Assembly (NCBI RefSeq): GCF_008974325.1
Contig: NZ_BKCG01000001.1
Span: 558,001-622,000 of the forward strand
DNA from: Patiriisocius marinus
Lineage (GTDB): Bacteria > Bacteroidota > Bacteroidia > Flavobacteriales > Flavobacteriaceae
DNA: 64,000 bases
Direction of reading: 5' to 3'
The position numbers were made by a program, and so were the translations under genes. Each line of letters begins with the position of its first letter. Positions within the stretch are counted from its first letter, which is position 1. Below are positions 17,342 to 28,021 of this stretch, in pieces. The notes below the pieces were generated by a model. It had not been told where the DNA came from. It saw only the letters and a program-made list of their open reading frames with translations, and ran no database searches.

Positions 17342-18685
17342 TTATTGAATTCCATTGATTTTCTGAAAACTTTGTAAGGCATTTCCGTCAGTTAATCTGG
17401 AAACATAACTACAGCATTCCATTAAATATTGGTAAACAGAAGCGCTTTCACTCAACGAGTCATCAAATTCACTAAGTATCAGTCGGTCATAATGACGAAC
17501 CTTACGTTCGCTGTAATGATTTTCAAAAGCTGTCGTAAATGTATCGAGTAATGTGGCTAAGATATGGTAGCCTGATATTTCCTTTTCTATCACTTCTTTA
17601 CTCTTATATATTTTTTCAACACTAATCTTAATAATATCGTCAATTTGAGCTTTGTACTCACACTTATCTAAAAGAGAACGAGAGAATGTTCCATTGAGAA
17701 TTTCTTCTTCATTTTCAATAAATTGTTTTGTCGCTTCTTTAATAAGTGTACTTATTGCCAGTGATCTTAAATAAGCTAGCCTATCTGTAGATTGTATTAG
17801 AGAGTTGTACTTTTCAGTATTAATTGTGTTTTTAACTAGCTTTATTAAATACTCTAGCGCAAACTCTTCATCGATAAGTCCTAAATTAATTCCATCTTCA
17901 AAATCTATTATTGTGTAGCAAATATCATCTGCTGCTTCTACAAGAAATGTTAATGGATGACGAACATAACTCATATCATTAGTATCTGATCTAGACTTTA
18001 AACCAAGTTCCTCTGCTACTTCTTTAAAAAAAGATTTGTCTGCTTGAAACAGCCCGTATTTTTTATCACCTATATAAGGTGTTGGTTGTTTAGGAAGTGA
18101 TTCCTTAGGATATTTCATAAAAGCCCCAAGGGTTGCAAAGGTTAATCGCAAACCACCGTCTACTCCATTTTTAGATTCAGTTAAAATTTTGAATCCATTG
18201 GCATTTCCTTCAAAATCAATGAGGTCTTGATATTCTTTATCTGAAAGGTCCTTTTTAAATCGTTTCCCATTTCCATTAGAAAAATAGTCCCCTATTGCTT
18301 TTTCACCACTATGCCCAAATGGTGGATTACCAATATCATGTGCTAATGCTGCTGCTGCGACAATTGCTCCAAAATCGTTAAAATGGTATCCGTGAGTTGA
18401 CTTTAAATGTGGATGTTTTTCTAGAATTGCTTTGCCTGCAGCCCTACCTAATGATCGTCCTACAACCGAAACTTCTAAACTGTGAGTTAACCTTGTATGA
18501 ACAAATGATGTTTTAGAAAATGGAATTACCTGAGTTTTATCTTGCAAACTCCTAAAAGCAGCAGAAAATATAATACGATCATAATCAACTTCAAAACCCA
18601 ATCGAGTTTCATCTTCTTCTATTCGTAATCGTTTATTCGTTACTCCCTGTTTTTTAAGTGAGAGCAGCTTTTCCCATTGCATCAT
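17342..18685 (-). CDS. dgt: dGTPase / dNTP triphosphohydrolase (HD domain)
   Basis: Hydrolyses dNTPs to nucleoside and triphosphate, balancing DNA precursors. The 447-aa protein has AFRSLQDKTQV (about 43-53) and HTRLTHSLEV (63-72). The HD pair is in AHDIGNPPFGHSGEKA (H116, D117). All are hallmarks of the Dgt branch of HD hydrolases, and the length fits the family. It is upstream of, and codirectional with, the M36 protease with a 91-base gap. It is divergent from the receptor gene at 18860. Substrate preference (dGTP or several dNTPs) cannot be decided here. Confidence 0.92.
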   Translation of the reverse strand: MMQWEKLLSLKKQGVTNKRLRIEEDETRLGFEVDYDRIIFSAAFRSLQDKTQVIPFSKTSFVHTRLTHSLEVSVVGRSLGRAAGKAILEKHPHLKSTHGYHFNDFGAIVAAAALAHDIGNPPFGHSGEKAIGDYFSNGNGKRFKKDLSDKEYQDLIDFEGNANGFKILTESKNGVDGGLRLTFATLGAFMKYPKESLPKQPTPYIGDKKYGLFQADKSFFKEVAEELGLKSRSDTNDMSYVRHPLTFLVEAADDICYTIIDFEDGINLGLIDEEFALEYLIKLVKNTINTEKYNSLIQSTDRLAYLRSLAISTLIKEATKQFIENEEEILNGTFSRSLLDKCEYKAQIDDIIKISVEKIYKSKEVIEKEISGYHILATLLDTFTTAFENHYSERKVRHYDRLILSEFDDSLSESASVYQYLMECCSYVSRLTDGNALQSFQKINGIQ

Positions 18686-18759
18686 TTTTAGCTTTTTTTA
18701 AGTGATGACAAGATACCTATTTGATGGCAATTTTTCAATGGAGAAAATTTCCGAAGCTG

Positions 18760-18837
18760 TTAACATTAAGATAACCTTTCTATAAACAAAGCATAACAGC
18801 TAGGTAACACGAACTTTACGTTGCTGTGGTTTCTTTG
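18760..18837 (+). promoter_or_regulatory. Five-unit Pho-box-like array and promoter of the receptor/lipoprotein operon
   Basis: Five consecutive 11-base units start at 18760, 18771, 18782, 18793 and 18804: TTAACATTAAG, ATAACCTTTCT, ATAAACAAAGC, ATAACAGCTAG, GTAACACGAAC. All begin with a variant of NTAACA. TTTG of the degenerate -7 box TTTCTTTG (18830-18837) begins 30 bases after the start of the last unit. OmpR/PhoB-family activators bind 11-base direct repeats just upstream of a weak promoter, which fits this layout. The regulator itself is not in the window. Confidence 0.75.
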
Positions 18838-18859
18838 CATTATAATAAAATACCCATAA

Positions 18860-21643
18860 ATGAAAAATTATATTACCCTTGCCATTACCTTTTTATCTAT
18901 TGCTATGTATGCTCAAGATGCTGGGTCTATTGTAGGTAAGTTAACTGATAAAGATGCAAATGATGAACCTTTGCCATTTGCTAACGTAATTATTAAAGGT
19001 ACATCGACAGGAACAACATCAGACTTTGATGGATTATACGCAATTGAAAATTTAGTAGCTGGAGATTATGTTATTGAAGTAAGCTTTGTAGGTTATGAAA
19101 CTATTGAAGTTCCTGCTACAGTTATTGCAGACAAAGTTACAACAGTAAATATCCCAATGGGAGCTAGTGCAGCTGCGCTTGACGAGGTTGTAATTACAAC
19201 TTCAATTAGAAGAGAAAGCCAAGTTGCTTTGCTTCTTGAACAGAAAAAAGCTACTACTATTAAAGAAAGTATAGGTAGTGAGCAATTAGCTAAACTAGGT
19301 GTTAGCGATGCTGCTGCTGCGACTACTAAAATTTCTGGTATATCTAAAACAGACGGAACGGGTGATGTATTTGTTCGTGGTCTTGGAGATCGATATTTAT
19401 ACACTACACTTAACGGTTTACCTATTCCATCTGACGATATTGAGCGTAAAAACATTGATCTTGGCTTATTTACTACTAGATTAATTGAAAGTATTGATGT
19501 TAGCAAAACAACATCTGCACGTTTATCTGCAGATCAAGCTTCTGGAAATATTGATATTAGTTCTAAATCTCTTAGCGGAAGTAAACTACTTTCGATAGGC
19601 GTTAGTGGTGGTACAAATACTAATGTGATTAGTAATGGTGTCTTCGGAAATTTTAAAGTGTCACCTAATAATGATAATGTGACCGCTGGTTTTTATTCTA
19701 AAGACCTAGGCACAAGGGAAGCATTAACAAATGAATCTTGGAACCCTAATACTATAAGCGCTCCAATTAACAGATCGGTTTCAATAAGTGCTGGAACTAA
19801 AATAGGAGAGAAATTAAAAGTATTAGCAACAATTGGCCAATCTTCAAAATTCGATTATAGAGAAGGCGTTTTTAGAGAATTTAGAGGAAACTTTATTGAT
19901 GATAGTATTCCTGATGCAATTACTTGGAAGAAAACTGTTGCAACATCTGGATTATTAAATGGAAAATTTAGAGCTAATGATAATCACTCTTTTGAATTTA
20001 CAACCTTGTTAATTAATAAGGTTGAAGATCAAGTTTTTGAAGGAGGCCGTGCAGGAACTGCAACAATTTTTGAAGAAACAAATGAAGGAGAAGCTTTTCA
20101 ATTTATTAGAGACCAAAACGTAAAAAATACACTTACTTCAATCACTCAATTAATTGGGAAAAACAAATTTACAGAACGCAATACTTTAGACTGGGGTATT
20201 GGGTACAACTACCTTTCTGCAGACGAGCCTAATCGTATTAGAAATGAAGTTAACTTTAATTTTGCTGAAGATCCAGACTTAGTACAACTAGGAAGAAATG
20301 GTGGTTTTCAACAACGCAAGAGTATTCAAAAAATTGAAGATATTGAATACAACGGTCGTATTAACGATGAGTTTTATATTGTTGAAGGAGATAATAGTTT
20401 CAAGATTGATTTTGGTGGAACTTATAGAAACAAAGAGCGTAATTTTGGATCACAGTTTTTTGGAATTGAAGAAACAGTACTAAATGCTGTTAACCCTACT
20501 TCAATAGATCATATATCAGAAATATTTACTGAACAAAATATAGCTAACGGATTACTAAAAGTAAATACATTACCCGCAGATAGATACAGAGGAAACCTCG
20601 AATCTATAGGTGGTTATTTTGAAGCTACCGGAGTTACTGGGAAATTTACAGTACAAGGAGGACTGCGTTACCAAGATGATCAAATTGATGTTACCTATGA
20701 TGTAGGTAATATTCCTGGTAGACTAGGTGAGGTTAATAAATCTTACCGAAGAGTATACCCTTCTGTCAATTTAAAATATGCTGCTTCAAATAAATTTAAT
20801 GTTCGTTTTGCAAATAGCTATACTACTACGCTACCAGAATTTAAAGAAATAGCTCCTTTCGAATATGTATCGCAAGTTGGTCAAGTAACTAGAGGTAACA
20901 CCTCAGTTGAAGCTTCTTTAAATGCTAATTACGATTTAAAGTTTGAATACTTCCCATCATCTGGACAACTACTTTCAATAACAGGTTTCTATAAGGATAT
21001 TGAGGACCCAATTAACAAGGTTCAAGATAGAGGGGCTTCTGGAGCTTTTTCATATTTCAACACCTCAGACAATGCTAGAATTTATGGTATCGAAATAGAA
21101 GGACGTGTAAAACTTATTGATGGTAGCGAAAGCGAAACTGTAAATGTAGATTTAAATGTAAACGCTTCCAGAATGTGGCACAAGCAAGATCTTCGCGAAA
21201 TATATGATGCAGAAGGAAACTTTGTAAACACCTTTAGATACAAAGGAATTACTGAAGTAGGATTACAAGGTGCGTCTGATTGGATTGTAAATACTTCGAT
21301 TAGCTATGACACTAATACAGAAAAGCCACTTGTAGCAACTATTGCTGGAAACTATGCTTCAGATAGAATTTTTGCCTTAGGAAATGCTACCATTAGAGAT
21401 TCTGGAGATATTAATTATAACGATGCGATTATAGAAAACGGCTTTGTTATGCTTGACCTAACAGTAACTAAAGAATTATCAGAAAAACTAACGGTTGGTT
21501 TCGTAGGGAAAAACTTATTTAACCCTGAAATTAAGAGAACTCAATTAGTAAGAAATCCTAACTCAGGTATTGAAACTAATGAAACAGTATTATCCTATTC
21601 TAGAGGTAGTCAACTAGGATTAAACTTAAAATATACATTTTAA
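18860..21643 (+). CDS. TonB-dependent receptor, probably phosphate-starvation regulated
   Basis: Outer membrane receptor of 927 aa. A signal peptide ends at MYAQ (residue 18). A CarboxypepD_reg-like domain (about 24-110) contains TGTTSDFDGLYAI. A plug (about 115-235) contains GTGDVFVRGLGDRYLYTTLNGLPIPS. It has a large barrel, and the C-terminus ends in YTF, the outer membrane end signature. The region after the plug (IDISSKSLSG) and overall pattern resemble receptors paired with surface lipoproteins rather than siderophore receptors. It is followed 37 bases later by a lipoprotein gene, and preceded by an array of 11-base Pho-like repeats. I infer import of a phosphorus-containing substrate; the substrate itself is unknown. 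Confidence 0.85.
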   Translation: MKNYITLAITFLSIAMYAQDAGSIVGKLTDKDANDEPLPFANVIIKGTSTGTTSDFDGLYAIENLVAGDYVIEVSFVGYETIEVPATVIADKVTTVNIPMGASAAALDEVVITTSIRRESQVALLLEQKKATTIKESIGSEQLAKLGVSDAAAATTKISGISKTDGTGDVFVRGLGDRYLYTTLNGLPIPSDDIERKNIDLGLFTTRLIESIDVSKTTSARLSADQASGNIDISSKSLSGSKLLSIGVSGGTNTNVISNGVFGNFKVSPNNDNVTAGFYSKDLGTREALTNESWNPNTISAPINRSVSISAGTKIGEKLKVLATIGQSSKFDYREGVFREFRGNFIDDSIPDAITWKKTVATSGLLNGKFRANDNHSFEFTTLLINKVEDQVFEGGRAGTATIFEETNEGEAFQFIRDQNVKNTLTSITQLIGKNKFTERNTLDWGIGYNYLSADEPNRIRNEVNFNFAEDPDLVQLGRNGGFQQRKSIQKIEDIEYNGRINDEFYIVEGDNSFKIDFGGTYRNKERNFGSQFFGIEETVLNAVNPTSIDHISEIFTEQNIANGLLKVNTLPADRYRGNLESIGGYFEATGVTGKFTVQGGLRYQDDQIDVTYDVGNIPGRLGEVNKSYRRVYPSVNLKYAASNKFNVRFANSYTTTLPEFKEIAPFEYVSQVGQVTRGNTSVEASLNANYDLKFEYFPSSGQLLSITGFYKDIEDPINKVQDRGASGAFSYFNTSDNARIYGIEIEGRVKLIDGSESETVNVDLNVNASRMWHKQDLREIYDAEGNFVNTFRYKGITEVGLQGASDWIVNTSISYDTNTEKPLVATIAGNYASDRIFALGNATIRDSGDINYNDAIIENGFVMLDLTVTKELSEKLTVGFVGKNLFNPEIKRTQLVRNPNSGIETNETVLSYSRGSQLGLNLKYTF

Positions 21644-21680
21644 TTAATTAAACACTAATCTCAAATTAAACATTAAAGAA

Positions 21681-23627
21681 ATGAAAACATTTAAAAATTT
21701 ATCGGCATATGTAGCAGCAGCTGCAATGTTATTTTTATCATCTTGTGGTAATGATGACGATTTCTCACCAGTTGATAGTGGTGAAGATGGAGAAGTTAAT
21801 TTAGAATTAAACGGTATTTTAGATAGCGACAGAATTTTAGATCCAACTCAAACGTATACAGTAACAGGTTCTTACCTAGTAAAATCTGGTGCTAAATTAA
21901 CTATTCCTGCAGGAACTGAAATAGTTTCTCAAGTAGCAACTAACAACTATATTGCTATTGAAAAAGGAGCACAAATTGATGTTCAAGGTACTGCTAGCTT
22001 ACCAGTTATTATGAGAAGTACATCTGGTAACCAAGGTGATTGGGGTGGATTAGTAATTCTTGGAGATGCTGTTACTACTGAAGGAGTAGATGCTATTGCT
22101 GAGGTAGGTGGTTTTATCTATGGAGGTACAAATTCTGCAGATAATTCAGGAAGTATTAATTATTTAATCATTAAAAATGCAGGAGCTCAAATTAACTCTG
22201 AGTCTCAATATAATGGACTTACACTTTACGCTGTAGGGAACGGAACATCAATCAATAACGTAGCCCTTATGGATGGTGCTGATGATGGTGTGGAATTTTT
22301 TGGAGGTTCAGTATCTGTAACAAATCTTTATGCTGAAAACAACCAAGATGATTCTATCGACTGGACTGAAGGATGGAATGGTTCTATCACTAACACTTAC
22401 GTTGTTCATAATAACGATGGTTTCTCAACTGCAATTGAAGCAGATGGAGATAACGGAAATCCTACAATTACAAACTTTACTGCGGTATCTACTGTAGGTG
22501 GAACTGCTTTACAGTTTAAAAAAATGAGTGGTGCTACAATTAATGGGTTGTCATTAACTGGTTATGAAACTTCAATCGACATGAAAGATGACGGACCTTT
22601 AGCAAACGTAATTATCGAAGGAGCATCTGCAGATCCATTTAACGGTTACACAACTTCAAGTTCAGTAGATGTGTCTATTTTTGACTGGGTAAACTCTAAC
22701 CAAACAGGAAACGCATCATTATTACAAGGTGTTGTTAACGGAACTGTAACGCTAGATGCTAACGTTGCTTACACATTAACATCTTCTTACATTGTTCAAG
22801 ATGGTGGGAAACTAATCATTCCTGCAGGAACCAAAATTACTGCTAATGCTTCTGGAACATCTGTGTATATCGCTGTATTAAAAGGTGGTCAAATCGAAAT
22901 TAACGGTACTGCAGACAATCCAGTAATTATGTCATCTGCAACTGCAACTCCTGGAGACTGGGGTGGATTAACTATATGTGGTGATGCTCCTACAACTGAA
23001 GGAACAGACGCAACTGCAGAAATAGGCGGATTTATTTACGGTGGTAATAATGCTGCTGATGATTCTGGATCAATTAACTACTTAGTAATGTTAGGTACAG
23101 GAGCTCAAATTAACTCTGAATCTCAATACAACGGAATTTCATTTTACGCAGTTGGTTCTGAAACTGAAGTAAACAATGTTGCAATTATTAATGGTGCAGA
23201 TGATGGAGTTGAATTTTTTGGAGGTGCAGTTAATGCTACTAATATATACTTAGAAAACAATGAAGATGATGCAGTTGACTGGACAGAAGGATGGAATGGG
23301 GCTTTGACAAATACTTTTGTTACTCATACTAATGGAAATTTCTCAACAGCATTAGAAGCAGATGGAGATAACGGAAACCCTACTCTTAATAATTTCACTG
23401 CAATTACAACAAGTCCTGGTACAGCTTTACAGTTCAAAAAAATGTCTGGAGCTACTATGACAAACGTTTTATTATCAGGTTATGACACGAATGTAGATAT
23501 GAAAGATGATGGTCCAGTATCAAATGTAATTATTGATGGTACTCCATTAACTACTGCTACCGATGATGTATTTAATGGTACTGCTGTAGATATTTCTGGA
23601 TGGGCGTGGATTACTGCACGTTTATAA
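21681..23627 (+). CDS. Duplicated right-handed beta-helix-like surface lipoprotein, partner of the preceding receptor
   Basis: A 648-aa lipoprotein with lipobox LFLSSC (Cys22). The following GNDDD is an acidic run like the surface-export signals of Flavobacteriaceae lipoproteins. The body consists of two homologous halves (about 59-322 and 364-633). Each contains GDWGGL, GGFIYGG, QINSESQYNG, DGVEFFGG, DWTEGWNG, EADGDNGNP, LQFKKMSGAT and DMKDDGP. The spacing of short Asn/Gly-rich strands suggests a parallel beta-helix. The many conserved acidic residues could bind metal. It lies 37 bases after the receptor gene, so one operon is expected. Function unknown; a surface substrate-capturing or hydrolysing role is inference. 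Confidence 0.85.
   Translation: MKTFKNLSAYVAAAAMLFLSSCGNDDDFSPVDSGEDGEVNLELNGILDSDRILDPTQTYTVTGSYLVKSGAKLTIPAGTEIVSQVATNNYIAIEKGAQIDVQGTASLPVIMRSTSGNQGDWGGLVILGDAVTTEGVDAIAEVGGFIYGGTNSADNSGSINYLIIKNAGAQINSESQYNGLTLYAVGNGTSINNVALMDGADDGVEFFGGSVSVTNLYAENNQDDSIDWTEGWNGSITNTYVVHNNDGFSTAIEADGDNGNPTITNFTAVSTVGGTALQFKKMSGATINGLSLTGYETSIDMKDDGPLANVIIEGASADPFNGYTTSSSVDVSIFDWVNSNQTGNASLLQGVVNGTVTLDANVAYTLTSSYIVQDGGKLIIPAGTKITANASGTSVYIAVLKGGQIEINGTADNPVIMSSATATPGDWGGLTICGDAPTTEGTDATAEIGGFIYGGNNAADDSGSINYLVMLGTGAQINSESQYNGISFYAVGSETEVNNVAIINGADDGVEFFGGAVNATNIYLENNEDDAVDWTEGWNGALTNTFVTHTNGNFSTALEADGDNGNPTLNNFTAITTSPGTALQFKKMSGATMTNVLLSGYDTNVDMKDDGPVSNVIIDGTPLTTATDDVFNGTAVDISGWAWITARL
21855..23579 (+). 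repeat. Internal tandem duplication within the lipoprotein gene
   Basis: About 790-810 bases are repeated: first copy roughly 21855-22645, second roughly 22770-23579. Matching motifs are 305-306 codons apart; for example GDWGG is encoded near 22035 and again near 22953. The copies differ at many bases but keep the motif order, so the duplication is old. Confidence 0.85.
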
Positions 23628-23649
23628 TATTTTGAATTAGCCCAAAATA

Positions 23650-23680
23650 AAAAGAGTCCCTATTTATTGGGACTCTTTTC
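23650..23680. terminator. Bidirectional intrinsic terminator
   Basis: An 11-bp stem AAAAGAGTCCC / GGGACTCTTTT with an eight-base loop lies between the lipoprotein gene and the converging MORN-type gene. Confidence 0.88.
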
Positions 23681-23698
23681 TATTATATAAAGTTCGAA

Positions 23699-24082
23699 TT
23701 ATGGTCTATTCGACACAACTCTAGTATCACTAATTTTCCAAGTATTAACTTCTGAAATTCTCGAATCGGTATATCTTACTTCTTTCATATTATCACCTTG
23801 GTAAAACAACCAAGTTCCTGTTTTCTCACCATTTTCATACTGAGCAACAGCAGTTTTATTCCCTTCTTCATCAAAGCTTGTCCACTCTCCTTGTAACTTG
23901 TTATCCTGAGTATAAAAACCTTTTTGAGCAACAACTCCATTATCGTGATACAAAGTAGCATTTATTAATCCGTTCTCAAGTACAAATTTGTCTTGCTTAC
24001 CTTCACAAGTCTTTTTACAATCTTGAGCATACATAGATGATGCTGATAAAATAACTGCTAGTATTAATATATATTTTTTCAT
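23699..24082 (-). CDS. Small secreted MORN-repeat protein
   Basis: A 127-aa protein with a signal peptide ending at MYAQ (about residue 19). Two or three MORN-type repeats follow, with patterns such as YHDNGVVAQKGFYTQDNKLQGEWTSF shortened and repeated as YENGEKTGTWLFY. Such proteins are often labelled YwqK-family antitoxin, but nothing here suggests a toxin partner. Two cysteines (in DCKKTCEG) follow the signal peptide. On the minus strand, TAAATTTG (24120-24113) is a good -7 box 30 bases before the start. A Pho-like repeat array lies just beyond it, suggesting induction by phosphate shortage. Role unknown. Confidence 0.8.
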   Translation of the reverse strand: MKKYILILAVILSASSMYAQDCKKTCEGKQDKFVLENGLINATLYHDNGVVAQKGFYTQDNKLQGEWTSFDEEGNKTAVAQYENGEKTGTWLFYQGDNMKEVRYTDSRISEVNTWKISDTRVVSNRP

Positions 24083-24112
24083 AACATTTTCTTTTTTTTA
24101 TTACTACAGTAC

Positions 24113-24172
24113 CAAATTTACACATTTAGTAACAATTAGAAAAGGTTTAGTTAACATTAAATTTACATTAAG
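24113..24172. promoter_or_regulatory. Pho-like repeat array beside the MORN gene promoter
   Basis: Read on the plus strand, the units GTAACAATTAG (24129), AAAAGGTTTAG (24140), TTAACATTAAA (24151) and TTTACATTAAG (24162) follow at 11-base steps; the second is weak. TTAACATTAA is identical to the start of the first unit before the receptor gene at 18760. A minus-strand -7 box (CAAATTTA at 24113-24120) adjoins it. The units point away from the minus-strand gene, unlike the other arrays, so which transcript they control is uncertain. Confidence 0.6.
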
Positions 24173-24374
24173 CTTGTAAAATTCTTATTATCAATTAATT
24201 ATATGTATCAAAATTACTATAATACCAATTATAACATAGTCTTTTATTAATGATTTCGTAATCTTTAGTTTACAATAGAAAAGCCTTTTGTAGCGTACTT
24301 TGTGAAGTCAAATGACAATTGTACTACATTTATAAATCACTTTAGTTTTTGTCGACTAGATTTAATAGTACAAT
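24173..24374. other. Non-coding stretch before an orphan terminator
   Basis: No convincing reading frame on either strand. It lies between the repeat array at 24129-24172 and a strong plus-strand terminator, so it could carry a small RNA. No perfect TAnnTTTG box was found; GTACTTTG near 24295-24302 is one base off in spacing. Confidence 0.3.
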
Positions 24375-24404
24375 AAGCCGCCTATAAAAAGGCGGCTTTT
24401 TTTT
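24375..24404 (+). terminator. Orphan intrinsic terminator
   Basis: A perfect 8-bp GC-rich stem AAGCCGCC / GGCGGCTT with an eight-base loop and a run of eight Ts. No plus-strand gene precedes it within 740 bases. It sits just before the Pho-like promoter of the porin gene, so it either ends an unannotated RNA or insulates that promoter. Confidence 0.88.
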
Positions 24405-24422
24405 GTGTTTTAATCCCAAAAG

Positions 24423-24467
24423 TTAACCATTTGGAAACATTACATCACTTTTTATTTTAGTCCTTTG
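24423..24467 (+). promoter_or_regulatory. Pho-like repeat pair and promoter of the porin gene
   Basis: Units TTAACCATTTG (24423-24433) and GAAACATTACA (24434-24444) follow directly. TTTG at 24464-24467 begins 30 bases after the start of the second unit, and the start codon lies 27 bases further. The -7 box (GTCCTTTG) lacks TA, as expected for an activator-dependent promoter. Confidence 0.7.
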
Positions 24468-24493
24468 CAGCGACAAAAACTAAAACTTGATTT

Positions 24494-25696
24494 ATGAAAA
24501 CTAGAATTATTCTAGGACTTGTAACGATATTATATTGTTACACAATGACTTCGCAAGAAATAAGTGACACCTCTTTTGGTAAAGGACTTATAAATTACAC
24601 AGCTAAAGACAGTACTTTTAGTGTAAAATTTGCTCCACGTATCCAAGCAAGATTCAATTCAAATTGGGATTACAACGGAGAAGACTATGACGATGCCGAA
24701 TTGAACTTTCTAATTAGAAGAGCTCGTTTAAAATTTAGTGGATTTGCATATTCACCAAAATTGAAGTACAAAATCGAACTTGGATTATCAAATAGAGACG
24801 TTTCTGGAGCAAACGATTTCAATCGAAATACACCACGATACATTCTAGATGCTGTTATCATGTGGAATTTTTATGAAAATTTCGAATTATGGGCAGGGCA
24901 AACAAAACTTCCTGGAAACGTTGAGCGTGTTGTTTCTTCAGCTAACTTACAGTTAATAGATCGATCACTATTAAACAGTAGTTTTAATATTGATAGAGAT
25001 GTGGGTGTTCAACTTCGACATTTCACACATTTAGGTGGCGATTTTATTATGAAAGAGAAATTAGCCATTTCGCAAGGTGAAGGTAGAAACGTAACTGAGG
25101 GAAATGAAGGAGGACTTCAATATACAGGACGATTAGAATTTTTACCCTTCGGAAACTTTAAATCTAAAGGAGATTATTCTCAAGGAGATTTAAAAAGAGA
25201 AGACACACCTAAACTAATGGTAGGATTAACATATGATTACAATCAAGATGCTGTTAAAACTAGAAGTAATCTAGGCTCATATATGGAACTTGAAGATGGT
25301 TCACTTTATGAAACTAACATAACAACATTTTTTGCAGATGCAATGTTTAAATATAAAGGTTTCGCTTTTATGGGAGAATATGCAAATAGAGATGCAGATG
25401 CTCCAGTAGCAATTAATGCTGACGGTACAGAAACAGGTGATATTGTAAGAGTTGGTGATGCTTTCAATACACAAATTAGTTACCTTTTTCAAAGTAATTA
25501 TGAACTCACAACAAGATATACATCCCTAAAGTTTGATAATATTACAGGAAGAGAAGCACAAAATCAATATACCTTAGGTGCCTCTAGATACATTGTTGGA
25601 CATAAATTAAAAATACAAGCTGATGTTAGCTACAGTACTTTAGGTGGTGAAGCTGATAATATTATGCTTAGAACAGGTTTTGATCTACACTTTTAG
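24494..25696 (+). CDS. Phosphate-selective porin O/P-like outer membrane protein
   Basis: A 400-aa outer membrane beta-barrel with a signal peptide ending near residue 21 (TMTSQ). The sequence APRIQARFNSNWDYN, then LNFLIRRARLKFSGFAYSP and KIELGLSNRD, matches the OprO/OprP porin family in order and spacing. Strands continue to the end, finishing GFDLHF with a C-terminal Phe. In Pseudomonas, OprP is a phosphate-selective channel made in phosphate shortage. The Pho-like repeats before this gene and the PiT transporter directly after it support the same role here. Selectivity for phosphate over pyrophosphate or other anions is not decided by the sequence. Confidence 0.85.
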   Translation: MKTRIILGLVTILYCYTMTSQEISDTSFGKGLINYTAKDSTFSVKFAPRIQARFNSNWDYNGEDYDDAELNFLIRRARLKFSGFAYSPKLKYKIELGLSNRDVSGANDFNRNTPRYILDAVIMWNFYENFELWAGQTKLPGNVERVVSSANLQLIDRSLLNSSFNIDRDVGVQLRHFTHLGGDFIMKEKLAISQGEGRNVTEGNEGGLQYTGRLEFLPFGNFKSKGDYSQGDLKREDTPKLMVGLTYDYNQDAVKTRSNLGSYMELEDGSLYETNITTFFADAMFKYKGFAFMGEYANRDADAPVAINADGTETGDIVRVGDAFNTQISYLFQSNYELTTRYTSLKFDNITGREAQNQYTLGASRYIVGHKLKIQADVSYSTLGGEADNIMLRTGFDLHF

Positions 25697-25707
25697 ATAA
25701 TTAATTA

Positions 25708-25752
25708 ATAACAATTTGGTAACAAATGCGCTTTAAAAAAACAAGACATTTG
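25708..25752 (+). promoter_or_regulatory. Pho-like repeat pair and promoter of the phosphate transporter gene
   Basis: Units ATAACAATTTG (25708-25718) and GTAACAAATGC (25719-25729) are adjacent. TTTG at 25749-25752 begins 30 bases after the start of the second unit. Transcription should begin near 25757, which makes the ATG at 25775 a better start than the one at 25757. Confidence 0.72.
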
Positions 25753-25774
25753 CACCATGATAATACAGAATATA

Positions 25775-28021
25775 ATGGATAATATTTATTTATTAATGTT
25801 GGTAGCATTGACAATTCTAGCGATAGCAGATATTGTTGTTGGAGTAAGTAATGATGCTATTAATTTTTTAAACTCAGCGATTGGCTCTAAAGCAATCTCG
25901 CTTAGAACAATAATGATTGTTGCTAGTTTAGGTATCTTTATTGGTGCTGTTTACTCTAGCGGAATGATGGAAGTTGCACGTAAAGGTATTTTTGTACCCG
26001 CCATGTTCACCTTCGATGAAATAATGATGATATTTATGGCTGTAATGATTACAGATATATTATTACTTGATTTCTTCAACACCCTAGGTTTACCAACATC
26101 TACAACGGTGTCTATTGTATTTAATCTATTAGGTGCTGCCATTGTAATTTCACTTATTAAAATAGGTGCTACAGATGGTAAGTCAATTGCAGATATAGGA
26201 GAGTATATAAACACAGCTAAAGCTATTGAAATTATTAGTGGTATACTAATGTCAGTAGTTATAGCATTCAGTGTTGGAGCTCTAGTACAGTGGGTTTCAC
26301 GTAGAATTTTCACATTTCATTTTGATAAAAAAATGAAACATTTCGGAGCAATATTTGGTGGTATCGCTCTTTCAGCTATTTTATATTTCATTTTTATGAA
26401 GGGGCTTAAAGGATCTCCTTTTTACAAAGACTTAAAAGGATACCTTGACGGTAACGAATACCTTGTTATTGCTATCAGCTTAGTAGTTTTCACACTTTTC
26501 TCTTACGCATTTCAAAAAATAACTAAGAAAAGTATTCTTCTAGTGGTAATTGCTGTTGGAACATTTGGTTTAGCATTAGCATTCTCTGGAAATGATTTAG
26601 TAAACTTTATTGGTGTACCAATGGCAGCCTTCCACTCTTACGAAGCGTGGTCTGTATCAGGTGTTCCTGCTACAGAATTTACGATGGAAATTTTAGATAA
26701 GAAAATGCCTGCAGAACCTTTCTTATTATTTATTGCTGGTGGTATAATGGTAGCTACCCTTTGGTTTTCTAAAAAAGCCAAAACAGTTGCTGAGACCGAA
26801 TTGAGCTTATCACGTCAAAATGATACTCACGAAAAGTTTGAGCCTAATATGCTTTCGAGAGGAATTGTAAAAGGAACAACGTGGTTATCTAACGCAATTA
26901 GCTCTGTAATACCAACAGCTACACAAAACAGAATTAACGCTAGTTTTACAAAACCAGACACAAAACATCTTACTAAAGATCAAAGTATAGATGCTCCTGC
27001 ATTTGATATGATTAGAGCTTCTGTCAACTTAATGGTTGCAGGTGTCCTTATTTCTATTGCAACTTCCATGAAATTACCATTATCAACTACATATGTAACA
27101 TTTATGGTTGCAATGGGTACTTCACTTGCTGATAGAGCTTGGGGGAGAGAAAGCGCTGTTTACCGTGTTGCTGGTGTTTTAAATGTAATTGGAGGTTGGT
27201 TCTTCACAGCTTTTGGAGCATTGATAGCTGCGGGTACTGTTGTATTCCTAATTAGCTGGAATAAAACTGTAATGATCCCTATCCTACTACTTATAACTAT
27301 CATATTATTGGTAAGAAATTATCTTTCTCACAAGAAAAAAAGCAACACAAATGTAGACCCTAAAAGCTTAAAAAAATCTGAAAGCAGTACGGTTCAAGGT
27401 ATTATTACTGAAAGTGCAGATAATATCTCTAACGTAGTATCTAGAACAAACAAGATATACACAGATGTACTTAAAGGTCTTGCAAAAGAAGATTCTAAGA
27501 AACTTAAAAAGACAAGAAAAGGAGTTGAAAAGCTAGATGAGGAAGTAGAAGACCTTAGAGATAATATTTTCTACTTAATTAAAAATCTAGACGAAACAAG
27601 TGTACGTGGAAGCAGTTTCTACATTACAATTTTAGCTTACTTGACTGATATGACACAGTCCCTAGAGTTTATTTCTAAGAAAAGTTACAAGCACATAAAC
27701 AACAATCACAGAAAGTTAAAATTCAATCAAATCAAAGATCTTCAGGAAATCGATGATTCATTAGAAGCACTTTTAAACGAAATTGAAGAAGTTTTCAATA
27801 GTCGTAAATTTGAAAGAATAAGCTATGTTCTATCTAGAAAAGAAGAAATAATTACGCTTATTACTAATAAAATTACTAAACAAATTGAAAGAACAAGAAC
27901 TGAAGAAGAGAGTCCTAAAAACACTTCTTTATACTTCAACATCTTGTTAGAAACAAAAGATTTAGTAACGAGTATTATGAATTTAATGGATGAATATTAT
28001 ACAAGTTATAAAAAAGAATAA
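25775..28021 (+). CDS. PiT-type inorganic phosphate transporter with C-terminal PhoU-like domain
   Basis: Inner-membrane phosphate transporter, 748 aa from the chosen start (754 from the ATG at 25757). Two inverted PiT signatures are visible: GVSNDAINFLNSAIGSKA near the N-terminus and FSGNDLVNFIGVP about 250 residues later. About ten to twelve membrane helices follow the family pattern, ending near residue 525. The last 200 residues are hydrophilic and helical (for example KGLAKEDSKKLKKTRKGVEKL) and resemble the DUF47/PhoU regulatory fold. This fusion is seen in Bacteroidota. The porin gene ends 61 bases upstream, but the gene has its own Pho-like promoter. Known PiT proteins carry metal-phosphate with protons. 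Confidence 0.92.
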   Translation: MDNIYLLMLVALTILAIADIVVGVSNDAINFLNSAIGSKAISLRTIMIVASLGIFIGAVYSSGMMEVARKGIFVPAMFTFDEIMMIFMAVMITDILLLDFFNTLGLPTSTTVSIVFNLLGAAIVISLIKIGATDGKSIADIGEYINTAKAIEIISGILMSVVIAFSVGALVQWVSRRIFTFHFDKKMKHFGAIFGGIALSAILYFIFMKGLKGSPFYKDLKGYLDGNEYLVIAISLVVFTLFSYAFQKITKKSILLVVIAVGTFGLALAFSGNDLVNFIGVPMAAFHSYEAWSVSGVPATEFTMEILDKKMPAEPFLLFIAGGIMVATLWFSKKAKTVAETELSLSRQNDTHEKFEPNMLSRGIVKGTTWLSNAISSVIPTATQNRINASFTKPDTKHLTKDQSIDAPAFDMIRASVNLMVAGVLISIATSMKLPLSTTYVTFMVAMGTSLADRAWGRESAVYRVAGVLNVIGGWFFTAFGALIAAGTVVFLISWNKTVMIPILLLITIILLVRNYLSHKKKSNTNVDPKSLKKSESSTVQGIITESADNISNVVSRTNKIYTDVLKGLAKEDSKKLKKTRKGVEKLDEEVEDLRDNIFYLIKNLDETSVRGSSFYITILAYLTDMTQSLEFISKKSYKHINNNHRKLKFNQIKDLQEIDDSLEALLNEIEEVFNSRKFERISYVLSRKEEIITLITNKITKQIERTRTEEESPKNTSLYFNILLETKDLVTSIMNLMDEYYTSYKKE

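Follow-up and report, generated by a model that had tools for sequence, protein, structure and literature searches.

Phased 11-base repeats before phosphate-uptake genes of Patiriisocius marinus, probable PhoB-type Pho boxes of Bacteroidota

Good descriptions of Pho boxes exist for several phyla. The effector domains of PhoB bind 11-nucleotide repeats head to tail, and multi-unit operators are known from Streptomyces coelicolor (PMC4415409). This report concerns phased repeats of the same period in a stretch of 64,000 nucleotides of Patiriisocius marinus (Flavobacteriaceae; contig NZ_BKCG01000001.1, positions 558,001 to 622,000, referred to as the window), which stand before the genes for a TonB-dependent receptor, a porin and a PiT phosphate transporter. 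We interpret these repeats as PhoB-type Pho boxes of Bacteroidota, with six units at the receptor, that activate phosphate genes in low phosphate, and we put the probability of this interpretation at about 0.88. It is the best supported reading because the same geometry recurs at the same phosphate genes throughout the family, the receptor of many relatives lies back to back with phoB, and the Flavobacterium counterpart is induced by low phosphate.

Within the Bacteroidota, the nearest published site is that of Riemerella anatipestifer PhoP, which binds a motif with the core TTTAACA in DNA affinity purification sequencing and electrophoretic mobility shift assays (PMC9603813). The PhoB of Bacteroides fragilis is known genetically, and the available text mentions a 'Pho box' once, without a sequence (PMC3547664); neither PhoB nor PhoP is named in the available main text of a transcription-start study of Flavobacterium psychrophilum (PMC9723704). 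In Flavobacterium johnsoniae, Fjoh_0545 and Fjoh_0546 show fold-change values of 8.02 and 9.91, evidently on a log2 scale, in low phosphate (PMC8115612). No promoter-level Pho box for Flavobacteriaceae was met in the literature searched, judged by its listings and with most subscription papers outside reach.

Repeat arrays and promoters in the window

Upstream of the TonB-dependent receptor (18860-21643, plus strand; 927 aa, with CarbopepD_reg_2 and Plug domains in Pfam), six 11-base units (TTAACATTAAG, ATAACCTTTCT, ATAAACAAAGC, ATAACAGCTAG, GTAACACGAAC and TTTACGTTGCT) occupy positions 18760-18825 of the plus strand. Five of them, TTAACA at 18760, ATAACC at 18771, ATAAAC at 18782, ATAACA at 18793 and GTAACA at 18804, had been noticed in an earlier sequence-only reading of the window, which missed the sixth, promoter-proximal unit TTTACG at 18815; this unit keeps the register, and relatives have TTTACA at that place. 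The Porin_O_P porin gene (24494-25696, plus strand; 400 aa, Pfam PF07396) is preceded by two units, TTAACCATTTG and GAAACATTACA (24423-24444, plus strand; TTAACC at 24423 and GAAACA at 24434), and the PiT gene (PHO4 in Pfam; 25775-28021, plus strand) by two more, ATAACAATTTG and GTAACAAATGC, within the porin-PiT gap (25708-25729, plus strand; ATAACA at 25708 and GTAACA at 25719). Both two-unit sites have counterparts at the porin and PiT genes of relatives. The position of the sixth unit is degenerate at the porin (TCACTT at 24445) and at PiT (GCTTTA at 25730).

In all three sites, TTTG begins (at 18834, 24464 and 25749) exactly 30 bases after the start of one unit, namely GTAACA 18804, GAAACA 24434 and GTAACA 25719. 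The claim of exact 11-base repeats at this constant distance is thus borne out letter by letter at the three genes; what it left out is one more unit, starting 19 bases upstream of TTTG, which is usual at the receptors and porins of relatives and degenerate at the window's own porin and PiT. As had also been claimed, the -7 boxes TTTCTTTG (18830-18837), GTCCTTTG (24460-24467) and GACATTTG (25745-25752), all on the plus strand, are degenerate, each lacking the TA of TAnnTTTG. Given that the -7 box is placed at -12 to -5 (PMC9723704), transcription would start at about 18842, 24472 and 25757, respectively. The units would then begin at -82, -71, -60, -49, -38 and -27 at the receptor, whose array would extend from -82 to -17, and at -49 and -38 at the porin and PiT. 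Because transcription of PiT would start at about 25757, the ATG at 25757 is an unlikely start codon; the alignments of relatives mostly begin at or near residue 7 of the protein started at 25775, at ATGGATAA or ATGGAAAA, which agrees with the start that had been assigned to the gene.

Taken by themselves, the repeats might be put down to chance in AT-rich DNA. The bare pattern, defined as two TAACA words 11 bases apart and TTTG at the fixed distance, no more than 2 mismatches being allowed, has 4 matches in the window, where the mean over 168 spacings (the real spacing included) is 1.25 and another spacing reaches 6. This chance test on the window alone leaves the repeat claim weak, and since the bare motif is also unenriched in the genome, the case rests on relatives. 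At no more than 1 mismatch, 13 places are found in the genome, among them the receptor, PiT and a one-mismatch site of exact geometry at a PF00245 alkaline phosphatase gene (C1:30606-30649). Separately, a two-mismatch match occurs in the gap before the gene next to this phosphatase (C1:31789-31832). Another one-mismatch site, ending in TATCTTTG, lies at C1:510352-510395 (minus strand), directly before a gene for a 415-aa membrane protein, possibly a metallophosphoesterase as judged by eye.

Conservation of the geometry among relatives

Spacing was counted in 80 Bacteroidota loci with a receptor alignment, fetched as named records. Upstream of the receptor and at a period of 11, TTTG follows at a distance of 30 in 60/80 loci, of 19 in 60/80 and of 41 in 28/80, and every other spacing is found in at most 15. 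When genes are classed by BLAST, the period of 11 with the distance of 30 (at most 2 mismatches) precedes 66 of 87 receptors, 23 of 25 PiT genes and 15 of 17 porins. The exact geometry is also present at 9 of 15 shorter receptor-like genes, 20 of 81 lipoprotein genes and 6 of 264 other genes, and is absent in these loci from all phoB (0/35), phoR (0/29), glycosyltransferase (0/16), MORN (0/5) and chromate transporter (0/3) genes. With eight control spacings, the mean for each gene class lies between 0 and 2.0.

The same distances stand out in 120 genomes drawn from the family, a set used alike for the receptor, porin, phoB-proximity and model searches, with strand-oriented counts covering the best 24-29 loci per gene set. 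At period 11, receptors show the distances 19, 30 and 41 in 25/29, 22/29 and 5/29 loci, and porins in 22/29, 19/29 and 10/29; no cell of either spacing grid outside these three distances rises above 4 (of 29). PiT genes have the distance of 30 in 18/24, with 8 in the largest other cell. For alkaline phosphatase the figure is 6/29, one site perhaps lying inside coding sequence, and 5 of the 6 fall among the 7 relatives in which the same gene lies immediately upstream. The expectation that phosphatases would share the motif thus holds for the one-mismatch site of P. marinus itself and for only these few relatives; it is probable that the alkaline phosphatase belongs to the regulated set.

A consensus was derived from 60 clear arrays, the other 20 of the 80 loci being left out for lack of one. 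With capitals for at least 70% and small letters for at least 45%, it reads.TAACAtTta..TAACatTaa. ataAca.A... tTAAcat.t...TAACAc.... TTTACA.t... ....TTTC TTTGCacc. TA at -12/-11 occurs in 0/60 of these arrays. A -7 box of this kind suggests a promoter that probably needs an activator, which bears on the possibility that the element represses its genes or is a dual site. The predicted placement of the units over the -33 region would suit repression, and repression is common in Riemerella, where deletion of phoP moves direct targets up in 34 cases and down in 16 (PMC9603813). Against this stand the lack of TA in 60/60 arrays and the rise of the Flavobacterium counterparts in low phosphate (PMC8115612), and we consider a repressing or dual element very unlikely.

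The array was also captured as a sequence-only model, R1, built from 55 relatives' receptor arrays with the window excluded and 5 of the 60 arrays, which looked atypical, dropped by hand. Its top match in the P. marinus genome is the receptor site of the window (18761-18839; 55 bits, E 2.8e-14), followed at 17.9 bits (E 0.01). In the 120 family genomes, R1 has 140 listed matches with E up to 0.001, spread over 90 genomes: 59 lie within 200 bases of a receptor match, 41 lie upstream of one by 0.6-2.6 kb and on its strand, 18 lie before a porin and 22 elsewhere. This count leaves out the 11 weakest porin entries and 3 second receptor matches, and in some genomes the 'receptor' match spans only the first 250-340 residues, so that receptors of other subfamilies are meant there. 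In the 4 of the 41 distant-upstream cases that were read, the gap holds a lipoprotein gene (L152-L154) or a small CarboxypepD_reg gene (L314).

Nineteen of the 22 matches elsewhere were read, and in 16 of these a phosphate-type gene follows. Four stand before PiT or, at some distance, before its operon, and eight before the porin or the operon to which it belongs (in one case with a weak BLAST assignment, in another with a PF12849 PstS after it). Of the other four, one precedes a choice-of-anchor I lipoprotein, two precede metallophosphoesterases of PlcP-like type (one assigned by Pfam, one by eye) and one an ECF sigma/FecR pair. The remaining 3 of the 19 are not followed by such genes. By their domain entries, the choice-of-anchor I lipoprotein, PlcP and ECF sigma/FecR types also appear in the F. 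johnsoniae low-phosphate list (PMC8115612). Beyond the family set, 18 of 198 genomes of the class have a match with E up to 1e-4, 5 of them in the same family and 13 in other families; in the latter the match is followed by a receptor of the same kind (7), a Porin_O_P porin (2, one of them followed by a gene that is PstS-like by eye), an FII-like lipoprotein (2) or a gene that was not identified (2).

On related sequences, then, the geometry is far beyond chance. Its conservation and gene specificity, with comparative counts that oppose chance for the set as a whole, leave an origin as fortuitous AT-rich repeats hardly credible, even though another spacing in the window reaches 6 matches and the genome as a whole shows no excess.

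Several loci show variations of the arrangement. L314 (1611-2095), like G006, G036, G049, G061, G070, G071, G084, G115 and others, has a pair of arrays upstream of the receptor, separated by about 0.6-0.8 kb; in L314, the only one of these loci that was read, the small CarboxypepD_reg gene sits between the two arrays. In L296, L297, L299-L302 and L305, small genes of a similar kind come after the array and ahead of the porin or PiT. In G076, of the same genus as P. marinus, the porin is 83% identical, the best nearby receptor match is only 31% identical, and an R1 match lies 1.4 kb upstream; the receptor may have been exchanged there while the type of array stayed.

PhoB as the probable reader

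With respect to the regulator, contig C7 of the P. marinus genome encodes a protein with receiver and Trans_reg_C domains and an adjoining HisKA kinase, with a glycosyltransferase gene after phoR. The best NCBIfam model for this regulator is TIGR02154 PhoB (E 3.8e-64), at 216.1 bits with the cut-off at 296.2. In part of the family genomes phoB and the receptor lie close together, and phoB is present in the stretch in 35 of the 80 named loci. Twenty phoB-receptor neighbourhoods were fetched, selected for the closeness of the two genes. The direct divergent neighbour of phoB is the receptor in 17 of them and a lipoprotein gene in 3, and the array is found at no more than 3 mismatches in 18 of the 20 phoB-divergent gaps. 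All 13 Flavobacterium loci have phoB, receptor and lipoprotein arranged as in Fjoh_0544-0546, and in all 13 the receptor has the geometry at no more than 2 mismatches.

That some other OmpR-type regulator reads the repeats, with genes linked to phosphate only in part, is an alternative to be weighed here. The genome holds six OmpR-type DNA-binding domains, its phoB is not beside the sites, and the Riemerella PhoP motif is reported to be highly similar to that of E. coli ArcA (PMC9603813). However, the phoB-adjoining gaps carry the array in nearly all of the neighbourhoods chosen for closeness, and R1 matches elsewhere precede PiT, porin, PstS-linked and PlcP-like genes, so that we judge this alternative improbable. 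A Pho-box-like element for an activator of the PhoB/OmpR type, as the sequence-only reading had proposed, is supported by the geometry in relatives, the divergence from phoB and the induction in Flavobacterium, and the array very probably switches phosphate-uptake genes on in phosphate shortage.

A number of observations weigh against the Pho-box interpretation. In P. marinus the receptor is on contig C1 and phoB on C7, and G002, which has PiT, porin, lipoprotein and receptor genes beside phoB, is among the 2 of 20 gaps without an array in register. A genome scan with the bare two-unit motif, expected to reveal enrichment, gives 142 places versus 138 for the reversed pattern, and the three-unit pattern in the Flavobacterium pectinovorum genome 36 versus 38; neither is an excess. 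With the trained R1, the receptor site of the window emerges as significant and no other site in the genome does, the porin (5.6 bits) and PiT (15.4 bits) giving partial matches; the remaining matches (up to 17.9 bits, 38 with E up to 10) resemble background among the 30 read. At the same thresholds as above, 30 of the 120 family genomes and 180 of the 198 class genomes have no R1 match, and the latter figure may mean either that the element is absent there or that its sequence has diverged from R1, whose training set is mostly from Flavobacteriaceae. The phoB gene is induced in F. johnsoniae and lacks the geometry in 29/29 relatives, OprP of F. johnsoniae is not induced in low phosphate (-1.3; PMC8115612), and the direct targets listed for Riemerella PhoP are mostly non-phosphate genes (PMC9603813). 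Autoregulation of phoB through this geometry was considered and rejected (0/29 relatives), the 2-mismatch match at the gene in P. marinus being probably due to chance.

The geometry, its conservation and its gene specificity are thus shown; for P. marinus we infer that PhoB reads the repeats, with an activating role and with low phosphate as the signal. In phosphate shortage, PhoR, the kinase encoded on C7, would phosphorylate PhoB, which would bind the direct repeats head to tail over the -33 region, covering about -82 to -17 in the receptor promoter and about -49 to -28 in those of the porin and PiT. Bound PhoB would then recruit RNA polymerase. The predicted targets are the receptor-lipoprotein operon, with its strong six-unit site, the porin and PiT, with two-unit sites, and probably the alkaline phosphatase (C1:30606). 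A wider proposal, which we advance only tentatively and regard as doubtful, is that of an ancestral, promoter-locked Pho box of Bacteroidia in which the number of units sets the strength or order of the response. If this were true, the six phased units of the scavenging receptor would carry a PhoB filament (-82 to -17), about three units would act at the porins of relatives and two at PiT, and genes would be switched on in sequence as phosphate falls.

The gene that follows the receptor (21681-23627, plus strand) encodes a 648-aa lipoprotein, named FII-like by likeness; it has no match in Pfam and NCBIfam scans, and the order of receptor and lipoprotein beside phoB recurs in relatives and in Fjoh_0545-0546 of F. 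johnsoniae (PMC8115612). A whole-genome search found the PiT gene of the window as the only PHO4 locus, and a whole-genome profile search found no PstS above the family cut-off; the PiT of the window is therefore probably the main phosphate importer, on which phosphate import of this genome rests. One PstS candidate below the cut-off was rejected, as it lies inside a gene that is LysR-type by eye. The receptor array shares a 174-base gap (18686-18859) with a divergent HD-domain gene on the minus strand (17342-18685). A weak R1 match (11.4 bits) at 24125-24172, between a MORN-type gene and the porin, has GTTAACATTAAATTTACATTAAG in 11-base register.

Flavobacteriaceae take part in the recycling of organic phosphorus. 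With its geometry known, the model could serve to predict which functionally uncharacterised receptors and lipoproteins join the phosphate response, and the sites offer apparently activator-dependent promoters within a phylum whose -7 box is unusual.

Relation to described Pho systems

Like Pho boxes, the elements at the window sites and in relatives are tandem direct repeats of an 11-nucleotide unit. They would lie over the -35/-33 region (on promoter positions derived from the -7 rule), at set distances of 19, 30 or 41 bases from TTTG in relatives, and they precede phosphate-uptake and phosphatase genes rather than others, if the alkaline phosphatase only in the minority given above. The PhoP box of Bacillus subtilis, which we take to be made of TTAACA-like repeats, presumably resembles the repeats of the window.

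The low-phosphate response of F. johnsoniae offers a close parallel, with a strongly induced receptor and FII lipoprotein beside phoBR, a glycosyltransferase gene after phoR in the phoBR operon as on contig C7, and a list that includes the PlcP, beta-propeller-entry lipoprotein, ECF sigma and FecR gene types also found by R1 (PMC8115612). It differs in the uninduced OprP, and the available main text uses 'Pho box', 'motif' and 'promoter' 0 times. In R. anatipestifer, PhoPR is reported to rise in phosphate starvation and the most conserved nucleotides of the PhoP motif are TTTAACA, whereas PhoP is interpreted in that study as regulating genes for pathogenicity and redox, and 'direct repeat' appears 0 times in the available main text (PMC9603813).

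The PHO boxes of E. coli and Streptomyces share the tandem 11-nucleotide direct repeats before phosphate genes, and at E. coli phoA the PhoB sites overlap the -35 region (PMC4415409, PMC3348028). The core is TTAACA/TTTACA here as opposed to CTGTCAT in E. coli and GTTCACC in S. coelicolor (PMC4415409). The arrangement further differs from these systems in the six units of the receptor site and in a register locked to a -7 box of the Bacteroidota type that lacks TA.

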